A DNA stretch of 64,000 bases from Sinorhizobium meliloti 4H41 (GTDB taxonomy: Bacteria; Pseudomonadota; Alphaproteobacteria; Rhizobiales; Rhizobiaceae), in NCBI RefSeq assembly GCF_000375585.1, contig NZ_AQWP01000001.1, positions 944,788 through 1,008,787 of the forward strand, read 5' to 3'. Within the stretch, counting starts at the first letter, position 1. Each line of letters opens with the position of its first letter. Position numbers and translations under genes: made by a program. Below are positions 16,208 to 43,237 of the stretch, one piece after another. The notes beneath the pieces were generated by a model. The model had not been told where the DNA came from. It worked only from the letters and a program-made list of their open reading frames with translations, and ran no database searches.

Positions 16208-17140
16208 TTACTTGAGGTGCCGTTCCAGGACGGGCACGCACATATCGAGGTCGTGGGAGGCGAGATGGGCGTAGCGCATCGTCATCTCGAGCGTCTGGTG
16301 GCCAAGCCACATCTGAACCCGTCTAAGGTCGATCCCGCCTCTGACCAAGCGTGAGGCGCAGGTATGCCGCAGGATGTGCGGAACGACGTCTTCTTCGTCG
16401 CCGAGGCGCGCATCCACCTTTGCAGCGTTCCAGACGGCGCGATACTTTTGCTGATCAATTCTCGAAAAGGGCCCCGGAGCCCTGTCGGCGCATTTCTTCA
16501 GGGCGTCCTTTGCCCTCAAGGTGAGCGGGACCGTGCGGCTGCGGCCCGATTTGGTGACCCAGAATGTCGCCCGGCCCTCGTGGATGTCGTTCCATTTGAG
16601 AGCAATGGCCTCGCCCAGGCGCGCACCCGTATCCACCAGGAATATCGAGAGATAAAGGTACAGTTCAGACCGGCTCGCAATCTCCCGGAAGAGCAGTTCC
16701 TCCTCGTCGGCTTCCAGAAAGCGTAGGCGCCCCGCCTTCTCCTTCTGGCGCTTGAACTCCGGTAGATTGTGTACATCCCCCATCTTGTACGCTTTCCGCA
16801 GCAGCTTTCGCAGCGCCGCCATCTTCCGGTTGATGGTCGCGTTGCTGTTGCCGCGCTTGCGCAGCGCACCGATGAGGCCGTCGAGCATCTCCTGCGAGAA
16901 GACGGAGAAACGCTTGCCGAGCAGAATCTCGTCCAGCTCTCCGACGAAAGCCTTCACATTGTATTTGTGCTTGCCTTCGTCCCACAGGATGTCGGCATAG
17001 CGCTGAAGCAATTCGGCGAGCGTGGCTTCCTTCACCACTCCCATGGGACCTTGCCGGCCGAAGCTATAATTGACCTCGTATCCGGACCCCATTCCAGGGA
17101 ATCCGAGGTCACTCGCTCGTTTTTCAGCGTCCGACGTCAC
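16208..17140 (-). CDS. Tyrosine recombinase / phage-type integrase
   Basis: A 310-residue site-specific recombinase. The catalytic set is complete: Arg174 (DTGARLGEAI), Lys197 (VTKSGRSRTVPL), His255 and Arg258 (HILRHTCASRLV), His281 (WLGHQTLEM) and the nucleophile Tyr290 (MRYAHL). The N-terminal part has a SAM-like core-binding domain. It resembles XerC/D-sized enzymes rather than large phage integrases. It stands alone between two inverted porin genes, with no excisionase, phage genes or att repeats seen nearby. It could be a relic of an element or an active recombinase; the intact catalytic residues argue against decay. Confidence 0.9.
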   Translation of the reverse strand: MTSDAEKRASDLGFPGMGSGYEVNYSFGRQGPMGVVKEATLAELLQRYADILWDEGKHKYNVKAFVGELDEILLGKRFSVFSQEMLDGLIGALRKRGNSNATINRKMAALRKLLRKAYKMGDVHNLPEFKRQKEKAGRLRFLEADEEELLFREIASRSELYLYLSIFLVDTGARLGEAIALKWNDIHEGRATFWVTKSGRSRTVPLTLRAKDALKKCADRAPGPFSRIDQQKYRAVWNAAKVDARLGDEEDVVPHILRHTCASRLVRGGIDLRRVQMWLGHQTLEMTMRYAHLASHDLDMCVPVLERHLK

Positions 17141-18345: not shown

Positions 18346-18594
18346 TTCTGACCTCCAGTCAGTCGTGGGAAAGAAATCCTATCGCTGGGCGGTCGGCGAG
18401 GCTTCGTACAGGCCGCCGAAGATCGTTTCGAACGCGTGGGAGCGGTCGCCAGGGCGCATGGGCTAGACCGCGGCGCTGACGAGTAGGAGGGAAGCGCCAG
18501 CACTGCCTTCCCTCAAATAGGGAGAAGGTGAGGGGAGGCGCGTCGCGTTCAAATAGAACTTCATGCCACGCGCTTTCGGGCCTGTTGAGATTTC

Positions 18595-18620
18595 GCCCTG
18601 TGCTCATTACAGGGATGAGA
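18595..18620. repeat. Palindromic repeat, diverged copy
   Basis: GCCCTGTGCTCATTACAGGG followed by ATGAGA is a diverged copy of the palindrome that occurs nearby at 18680, 18841 and 23474. The CCCTGT/ACAGGG arms are intact; the loop differs. Confidence 0.6.
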
Positions 18621-18625
18621 GCAGC

Positions 18626-18705
18626 GCCGCGTCTGCGGCGCGGAAGAGCCTTCCAGCCCAAGGACTTGGTCTGGCTGTATTCCTGTGACAAGCACAGGAA
18701 TGAGG
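18626..18705. repeat. Mosaic repeat ending in a palindrome
   Basis: An 80-base unit starts with GCCGCGTCTGCGGCGCGG, continues with AGCC...CAGCCCAAGG and CTTGGTCTGGC, and ends with the palindrome TTCCTGTGACAAGCACAGGA plus ATGAGG. A second, similar copy lies at 23421-23500 after smpB. The GIY-YIG remnant begins eight bases to the right. Confidence 0.75.
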
Positions 18706-18712
18706 GACCGAG

Positions 18713-18850
18713 ATGAAAGGTTACGCCTACATTCTCGCGTCGAAGCGAAGCGGGATGCTGTATACGGGCGTGAACCGCGACCTTCCGCCTCGCTTCACGG
18801 TTTATCAAACGCGCCGGGGCGTCACACCCTCTCTACCTTCATCCCTGTGA
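18713..18850 (+). pseudogene. Truncated GIY-YIG nuclease remnant (45 codons)
   Basis: The frame begins MKGYAYILASKRSGMLYTGV and continues NRDLPPRF. This is the start of a GIY-YIG (UPF0213-type) endonuclease: the YIL and YTG motifs and a DLxxR segment are recognisable. After about residue 28 the similarity stops, and the frame ends at codon 46 inside a palindromic repeat, whereas intact family members are about 90-100 residues. The C-terminal half with the catalytic Glu is missing. Palindromes of the same family lie on both sides (18680-18705 and 18841-18867). It is probably nonfunctional. Confidence 0.65.
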
Positions 18851-18867
18851 CGAGCACAGGAATGAGG
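18841..18867. repeat. Palindromic repeat overlapping the end of the GIY-YIG remnant
   Basis: CCCTGTGACGAGCACAGG followed by AATGAGG. The arms CCTGTG and CACAGG pair perfectly around ACGAG. It is the same family and orientation as the copy at 18680-18705, and supplies the stop codon of the nuclease remnant. Confidence 0.7.
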
Positions 18868-18932
18868 CGATCAAACAAGCCGCAGCGAGCGGCCCGAATC
18901 ACAACAGGCCTTAATTTGTCCGCGCAGTGACG

Positions 18933-23420: not shown

Positions 23421-23500
23421 CCGCGTCTGCGGCGCGGAAAAGCCATTTTCAGCCAAGGCTTGGTCTGGCCTCCGTCCCTGTGACAAGCACAGGGACGAGG
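23421..23500. repeat. Mosaic repeat ending in a palindrome, second copy
   Basis: Begins CCGCGTCTGCGGCGCGGAAA, continues AGCC...CAGCCAAGGCTTGGTCTGG and ends with the palindrome GTCCCTGTGACAAGCACAGG plus GAC. It matches the block at 18626-18705 with a few substitutions and small gaps. It fills most of the gap between smpB and the NYN-domain gene, which point towards each other. Confidence 0.75.
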
Positions 23501-43124: not shown

Positions 43125-43237
43125 GCGTTTCTGAGAAGGCGACCGCGGTGGCGACGGGTGGCGGATGGCTTTTCTCCCACCCCTGTGACGGACACAGGGA
43201 TGGGAGGTCGCAGAGGGTGTGGCGCTCCGAAACGCTT
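43123..43237. terminator. Long bidirectional hairpin between recO and phoX with an inner palindrome
   Basis: The outer arms AAGCGTTTCTGAG (43123-43135) and CTCCGAAACGCTT (43225-43237) pair with one mismatch and overlap both stop codons. An inner copy of the palindrome family (CCCTGTGACGGACACAGGG, 43181-43199, inside CCCAC...GATGGGA) sits in the loop. The whole gap between the convergent genes is this nested structure. Confidence 0.65.

Follow-up and report, generated by a model that had tools for sequence, protein, structure and literature searches.

Within 270 bases of the window (the whole stretch of DNA analysed here, 64,000 nt from Sinorhizobium meliloti 4H41), three palindromes of the type CCTGTG-N5-CACAGG lie close together, each directly followed by (G/A)ATGAG, and the last two bracket a 45-codon frame that starts like a GIY-YIG endonuclease. 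Is this a chance meeting of repeats with a gene fragment, or the trace of a nuclease that recognises or moves the repeats? The initial annotation favoured the latter, proposing that rhizobia have a family of short palindromes tied to a small GIY-YIG enzyme and that the window holds a broken copy.

The window array and the gene it derives from

The three palindromes were found as described, at 18597-18613 (one mismatch), 18682-18698 and 18844-18860, and they are CGTC/CCTC-tagged REP repeats. When up to two mismatches were allowed, the window held six such palindromes against 1.7 expected, a number that one of 100 shuffles reached. Genome-wide, exact CCTGTG-N5-CACAGG copies numbered 109, many of them paired at a spacing of 85-88 bp, and CCTGTGACRRGCACAGGRAT had 148 matches at up to two mismatches; the corresponding control patterns (reversed for the exact search) gave 0 in both cases. 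The features of the array and of the further candidates in the window are as follows.

18579-18592, plus strand: left end of a longer enclosing inverted-repeat element (GGCCTGTTGAGATT), from the sequence
18597-18613, minus strand: worn REP palindrome core, tag on the left, left member of a doublet; 1 mismatch to CCTGTG-N5-CACAGG, weak hairpin (z -1.96)
18614-18681, no strand: doublet spacer with a GCCGCGTCTGCGGC-type inner hairpin, from the sequence; same kind of spacer as in doublets elsewhere in this genome (G000) and in G014
18682-18698, plus strand: intact REP palindrome core, tag on the right, right-hand partner in the doublet, lying ~15 bases 5' of the remnant ATG; exact match
18713-18791, plus strand: remnant of the 5' part of a GIY-YIG nuclease gene, covering its first ~26-28 codons; 60% identical to the intact protein (E 1.2e-7)
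18792-18843, plus strand: nuclease gene 3' end and trailer, fused to the 5' part via an internal deletion; resembles the region around the intact gene's stop
18844-18860, plus strand: REP palindrome core closing the remnant; exact match, hairpin z -3.47
18897-18910, minus strand: right end of the enclosing GGCCTGTTGAGATT inverted-repeat element, from the sequence
23477-23493, plus strand: REP palindrome core that reads as one half of a decayed doublet, with the spacer hairpin lying upstream (~23421-23476); exact match, hairpin z -6.32
43182-43198, plus strand: intergenic palindrome without a tag and with a divergent loop; membership doubtful

The intact palindrome at 18682 has a predicted single-strand DNA hairpin of -8.5 kcal/mol (z -3.35), with a stem of 9 and a loop of 5. 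Two extra copies had been proposed at 23474 and 43181; the former stands, at 23477, and reads as half a doublet. The latter is doubtful: it has no tag and a different loop, lies between two genes, and could be an unrelated hairpin, perhaps a terminator. Elsewhere in the neighbourhood, a 310-codon frame at 16208-17140 reads like a tyrosine recombinase/integrase, and a porin-like gene adjoins. The GGCCTGTTGAGATT-ended element often encloses REP doublets in this genome (window 18579-18910 and 23504; G000:C1 602773, 696464, 697436 and 758493) and is also found without a clear REP, and it is possibly a separate MITE family that REPs have invaded.

Against the Pfam GIY-YIG model, the 45-codon frame at 18713-18850 matches weakly over residues 2-33 (E 0.005, 17.5 bits, cut-off 22.6); against the intact GIY-YIG protein of the same genome, it matches over residues 1-40 with 60% identity (E 1.2e-7). 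Thus the resemblance to a GIY-YIG start noted at the outset is borne out, and the frame is the remnant of a nuclease gene, its start fused to its 3' end. Only two Pfam GIY-YIG matches occur in the genome, one in a 713-codon frame that looks UvrC-like from its sequence and the other in the intact small gene of 96 aa (C9:160026-160313), which has palindromes on both sides, tags toward the gene. The S. meliloti copy of the gene sits between hflX and mazG.

A protein search of the genome at a loose threshold located remnants in 11 more places, the window copy included (two with E >0.1), and all 11 matches are confined to the first 40 codons of the nuclease. Together with two remnants from the conspecific genome G014, 13 were compared for deletion. 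The middle of the gene is missing in all 13, and 12 have a common junction joining codon ~28 to the gene 3' end; about four extra bases are gone at the junction of the window remnant, and its G014 counterpart has the common form. Due to the fact that the junction test tolerates 6 edits and the intact gene matches it too, we put weight on the missing middle and on the junction sequences as inspected. One deletion common to copies at different places means that the deleted form itself spread. Moreover, three remnants (L056-L058) have a second deletion in common.

The palindromes bracketing the window fragment point in the same direction, whereas those of units elsewhere are mostly inverted (50/54). 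At the orthologous place, G022, G003 and G013 have no array, with both flanks aligning, and among 29 loci from other genomes only G014 has a REP there; most of these 29 loci align on one side only and are thus no proof of an empty site. The G014 array has one doublet and one remnant stretch more than the window array, and judging from this comparison the window copy looks like a recombination-shortened form of a G014-type array. The gap of 15 bases between palindrome and ATG in the window results from the loss of ~60 bases of leader, as seen in comparison with L048 and L085. A start codon 10-20 bases after the palindrome had been expected of intact homologues; it was found in 0 of 60, the median distance from stem end to the start of the protein match being 73.5 bp (n=60). 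The window array most likely consists of a doublet and a nuclease gene with an internal deletion, shortened further by recombination between repeats.

Linkage and cognate pairing of nucleases with REPs

The intact 96-aa protein matches Pfam PF01541 with E 1.3e-14, and the domain covers residues 2-76. In an alignment of 15 sequences, residues G3, Y6, G19, R27, E64 and N83 are invariant, and we take them to have the catalytic roles of the GIY-YIG fold. The predicted structure is a lone GIY-YIG domain (pLDDT 91.5), for which structure comparison returned a single solved fold under E 0.001, the UPF0213 protein BH0048, followed by chains of Slx1 at E 0.008 and weaker; Slx1 proteins are nucleases acting on branched DNA. 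Purifying selection on the nucleases of this type, named clade A, is strong, with dN/dS of 0.02-0.11, dS being saturated for several pairs.

To find relatives, one genome per species was scanned with nine clade A proteins, and the best 80 of 166 were kept. These 80 are 71-98% identical and come from Sinorhizobium, Rhizobium, Agrobacterium, Neorhizobium, Hoeflea, Martelella, Devosia and others; in-frame stops interrupt three of them (L137, L162 and L163). Within 300 bp, 35 of them have the CCTGTG palindrome upstream and 46 have it downstream, 30 being flanked by it at either end, and most other relatives have palindromes with different stems and like tag and tail. We used a REP detector based on a tag, a stem of 8-9 (at most one mismatch), a loop of 3-6 and a tail, where the detector itself requires TC ahead of the stem and, behind it, CC, CT or TC. 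Tagged REPs lie within 300 bp of 78 of the 80 genes (upstream 60, downstream 72, both 54), compared with 12 of 833 background windows of 300 bp taken >1200 bp off. The two exceptions are L113, near a contig start, and L162, a pseudogene with a palindrome at one mismatch. Intact homologues do not lie at random with respect to the palindrome, and these counts support the link that the initial annotation had proposed between a rhizobial palindrome family and a small GIY-YIG enzyme, with the window as a broken copy.

Among the 54 two-sided loci, REPs are inverted in 50, with tags toward the gene in 33 and away from it in 17; with two such classes, unit borders are not uniform. The nearest REPs have a cgtc or cctc tag in 128 of 132 cases and a ccag tail in 116 of 132, the TC and the first tail letters being partly set by the detector. 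At seven loci (L148, L149, L150, L151, L120, L133 and L138), REPs with CCGG stems and with CCTGTG stems occur near one gene, perhaps as the trace of a change of specificity. Two genomes, Rhizobium sp. Leaf453 (L094/L116) and AFS094519 (L101/L102), each have two nucleases with different flanking stems.

Outside this set the linkage is partial. A relative is present in 95 of 289 sampled Alphaproteobacteria genomes; 109 loci were taken from the larger match list, and exclusion of five close to a contig end left 104. A tagged REP by the strict definition lay within 300 bp of 56 of these, the background being 6/2080 simulated flank pairs and 4/96 far windows. For the other 48, no tagged REP was detected within 300 bp; 40 of these have a hairpin (arm >=7) no more than 250 bp away and 15 have a tag-like flank, an uncontrolled count. 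Tagged REPs flank the Azospirillum and Aeromonas relatives on both sides and the Photobacterium relative downstream only. The nuclease of Azospirillum lipoferum 4B (L218) lies with REP doublets between sufB and sufC of the Fe-S assembly cluster. The Planktothrix relative was negative with the detector and has eight matches of another repeat, GTCATTC, nearby; at L220, on a Planktothrix agardhii plasmid, the relative adjoins GTCATTCTGAG-type repeats between an MmeI-like enzyme gene and DISARM drmA, and the repeat may be another tag-bearing class. In Neisseria gonorrhoeae, a relative with 57% identity over 89 residues has CGTC REPs on both sides. A parallel to a Neisseria repeat-associated nuclease had been drawn for the window; since the proteins are homologous, the rhizobial system is more than an analogue.

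Of 33 genomes of the genus, 19 contain a relative, clade A in 12 (two of them with broken genes only), clade B in 10 and both in three. The clade B nuclease is ~51% identical to clade A, and ATCCTCGGGCTTGACCCGAGGAT-type REPs occur at 12 of 12 clade B loci (two gene fragments and two loci clipped by contig ends among them); the UvrC-like locus had no ATCCTCGGGCTTGACCCGAGGAT-type REP. Clade B loci, which have no CCTGTG palindrome, were dropped as a negative control because a REP stem of their own is present, and instead provided the other half of the pairing analysis; the clipped L066 was left out of the comparison of CCTGTG palindromes between genus loci. A B pattern with a free loop swept in terminator-like hairpins (TTTAA loops), so a specific pattern was used instead. 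A TCCTCGGGTTTAACCCGAGGA hairpin with the clade B stem and a different loop recurs in many genomes of the genus and is probably a terminator type.

With these patterns, each REP type tracks its own nuclease and not the other. Over the 33 genomes, A palindromes go with nuclease A (median 25.5 vs 7, p 0.003) and not with nuclease B (p 0.31), and B palindromes go with nuclease B (12 vs 2, p 0.003) and not with nuclease A (p 0.15). When copies closer than 1.5 kb to the gene were left out, p was 0.0065 for A and 0.022 for B. Correction for kinship weakens the pairing: in a phylogenetic model based on the slt tree of 30 of the 33 genomes (one slt, that of G031, from a clipped locus), p for A was 0.011 at lambda 0.90, the best value, and 0.026 at lambda 1, while for B the best lambda was 0, equal to no correction, with p 0.049, and lambda 1 gave p 0.063. 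Thus palindrome counts depend on the cognate nuclease, as had been predicted, and the dependence is not absolute: one genome without a nuclease match has 57 A palindromes, which indicates that loss of the enzyme does not erase the repeats. Moreover, distance between nucleases correlates with distance between stems (r 0.57, 0/2000 permutations, 78 of 80 loci), and as linked flanks should co-diverge with the gene, this correlation alone is no proof of recognition.

A neutral account would have a small non-essential gene and repeats gather in tolerant intergenic sites and remain linked by descent. Eight Rhizobium loci (L129 to L159) do form a group at a single location, as this account would have it; the linkage of 78/80 against 12/833, the inverted arrangement in 50/54, the stem-specific pairing on a genome-wide scale and the dN/dS of 0.02-0.11 already disfavour it, and we regard it as hardly credible.

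Unit borders, derivatives and occupied sites

In Rhizobium sp. BK418, the gene occupies two sites (L122 and L135) with 89% identity over 480 bp, and in R. mesosinicum HU56 likewise (L128 and L137) with 86% over 477 bp, L137 having an in-frame stop. In both same-genome pairs, homology starts 16-17 bases before the left core, that is 7-8 bases beyond the tag, and stops 9 bases past the right core, i.e. with the tag, and within neither pair do the flanks show homology. Between-genome pairs (L119/L137 and L099/L104) gave units of like size. A third same-genome pair, L154/L157, has 1056 bp in common, past the REP, and is a larger duplication. No target-site duplication was apparent at the same-genome pairs inspected.

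Downstream of L122 lie three units that have lost most of the gene and kept both unit ends, the left end over 91-93 bp (91-97% alike) and the right end over 113-119 bp (74-75% alike). Empty sites were searched in 41 selected genomes, of which seven matched, five of them over nearly the whole query; the L135/L137 site is empty in L224 and L227, and in L225 the gene is reversed, with REPs on one side only. The REP-gene-REP stretch in Rhizobium is a small mobile unit. In S. saheli, the nuclease seems to have the same neighbours in reversed orientation, by flank comparison of L097 with L088, L091 and L105, which seems to be what inverted-repeat recombination or a new insertion would give.

The border evidence is good in Rhizobium and weak in this genome. 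For 55 pairs of remnant arrays here, common sequence stopped 7-8 bases outside the outermost core on the right in nine, on the left in six and on both sides in two; the other pairs stop at an inner REP or run on. The arrays stop irregularly partly because many doublets lie inside the GGCCTGTTGAGATT inverted-repeat element. Comparison of G000 with G014 over 200 kb revealed changes inside arrays and a composite insertion, and no clean single-doublet insertion.

It could be argued that the REPs are moved by a different transposase, either a RAYT or an enzyme that acts on the longer inverted-repeat element, and that the GIY-YIG gene is a passenger. The enclosing element could indeed have moved the many doublets that it holds in this genome, and some common sequence extends beyond the tags. 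In Rhizobium, however, the units stop at or near the tags between unrelated flanks, and two nuclease clades each track their own palindrome; moreover, the survey by Di Nocera, De Gregorio and Rocco (2013) reports that a transposase gene tied to CGTC repeats was not found (PMC3733652). We therefore consider a passenger role improbable.

More serious is the possibility that the gene is a domesticated, site-specific single-strand nuclease that tunes recombination or DNA uptake, the REPs having spread by recombination, gene conversion and slippage. The Neisseria nuclease Ssn reportedly acts on repeats in this manner, and the Neisseria relative sits among CGTC repeats; the strong purifying selection would fit a host role, the changes in the window array look like recombination between repeats, and some REP-rich genomes have no nuclease match. 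A fixed host gene would, however, hardly be absent, present or reversed at one and the same site, nor duplicated with defined ends so as to leave mostly gene-less derivatives. Flank homology points the same way: with 2-kb flanks (71 of the 80 loci), 191 of 2485 locus pairs have any and 50 have it on both flanks. This pairwise count replaces a grouping into 31 genomic contexts by chained flank similarity, which was discarded as threshold-dependent (26, 9 or 3 groups for the 71 loci). On balance, domestication seems to us unlikely, less so than the passenger role.

A proposed mechanism and known systems

We consider it probable that the nuclease binds its cognate REP hairpin and nicks near the tags, and in this way mobilises the REP-gene-REP unit as well as gene-less doublets. 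In such a process, the nuclease would bind the palindrome folded as a hairpin in single-stranded DNA and would nick at or near the GTC/CTC tags, and host replication and repair would copy the unit, or a gene-less doublet with common ends, elsewhere. Doublets and remnant-bearing arrays, being non-autonomous, would stand to the gene-bearing unit as MITEs do to an insertion sequence. Hairpin recognition, strand specificity, tag cleavage and movement caused by the nuclease are the steps that we infer here, whereas the linkage, the inverted arrangement, the pairing of counts, the unit ends in two Rhizobium genomes, the common internal deletion, the empty sites and the purifying selection are observed. 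The single-domain GIY-YIG nuclease of 90-100 aa is the best candidate enzyme for CGTC REPs, and the superfamily gains, from linkage, pairing, unit ends and empty sites, a named candidate together with a direct test.

A broader version, which we put forward tentatively and with somewhat less than even confidence, is that small GIY-YIG nucleases are the dedicated mobilisers of CGTC REPs, that is, the enzymes of minimal single-gene transposons with hairpin ends. The REP doublets of alphaproteobacterial, neisserial and other genomes would be the derivatives of these transposons without the gene, and each nuclease lineage would co-evolve with its own stem. If so, this would be the GIY-YIG counterpart of the RAYT/REPIN system, and GIY-YIG would be added to the catalytic folds behind small mobile DNA. 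A single origin would then account for much of the intergenic hairpin content of rhizobia and Neisseria, and many nuclease-palindrome pairs of differing specificity might be usable as single-strand cutting tools.

Among known GIY-YIG proteins, homing endonucleases of the I-TevI type have a catalytic domain plus a DNA-binding tail and are intronic or lie inside their target gene. This identity was rejected, as the present protein has 96 aa with the domain at residues 2-76 and the S. meliloti copy of its gene lies between hflX and mazG; the NCBIfam intron endonuclease model scored 19.2 bits (cut-off 56). An Ssn-type nuclease is a single-domain GIY-YIG protein that keeps the catalytic residues and performs sequence-specific cleavage of single-stranded DNA only, and Ssn of Neisseria is reported to be such a single-strand nuclease with the NTS repeat (Chenal et al. 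2025). The present protein resembles it in its single domain, its invariant residues and its Neisseria homologue (57%) amid CGTC REPs. We infer that the N. gonorrhoeae relative is Ssn, and the reported work on Ssn supports single-strand cutting by a Neisseria relative. The present system differs from Ssn as reported in that its gene forms the centre of a dispersed unit, which occurs with several types of stem and has left deletion derivatives.

Among repeats of rhizobia, RIME1, the Rhizobium intergenic mosaic element that Osteras reportedly described in 1995, is reported to be about 108 bp long with two large palindromes, and by this description it resembles the 103 bp doublets found here; to our knowledge, RIME1 has not been linked to a nuclease. 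The relation of a MITE to its autonomous partner is seen in the gene-less units that share both ends with L122, in the junction common to 12 of 13 remnants, and in the defined insertion at two same-genome pairs with empty sites (L224 and L227).

Literature searches, with subscription journals outside their coverage, returned no paper tying GIY-YIG to REPs; in PMC9465073 both terms occur, as separate genes. A mobile REP-gene-REP unit that has MITE-like derivatives, and its tie to the CGTC superfamily, appear to be new. According to PMC3733652, CGTC REPs are one of two large REP superfamilies and "apparently lack a dedicated transposase"; the term GIY is absent from its main text. They are defined there by an unpaired CGTC (or TGTC/CCTC) tag at one end and a CCA-like tail at the other, with an 8-9 bp stem opening with A-T pairs and a 4-5 base loop, mostly as inverted dimers, in species that include S. 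meliloti, A. tumefaciens and A. lipoferum, the Neisseria dRS3 being CGTC-1 (PMC3733652). The present repeats share the tag, the tail, the stem of 8-9 that opens with A-T pairs, the loop and the inverted high-copy dimers, stem and loop being set by our detector for copies other than the one at 18682. They differ in that they flank a GIY-YIG gene, whereas the repeats of the 2013 paper come without a known enzyme.

The closest counterpart in organisation is the REPtron with its REPINs, in which a gene for a RAYT tyrosine transposase, an enzyme reported to cut single-stranded REP DNA, is flanked by GTAG REPs (PMC3733652). Both systems have a REP-flanked gene and many solo and doublet REPs without a gene. 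The gene between the REPs here is, however, a GIY-YIG gene and not an HUH/Y1 gene, and the tag is CGTC/CCTC instead of GTAG; and in contrast to REPtrons, the present derivatives share both ends with the gene unit, as MITEs do.
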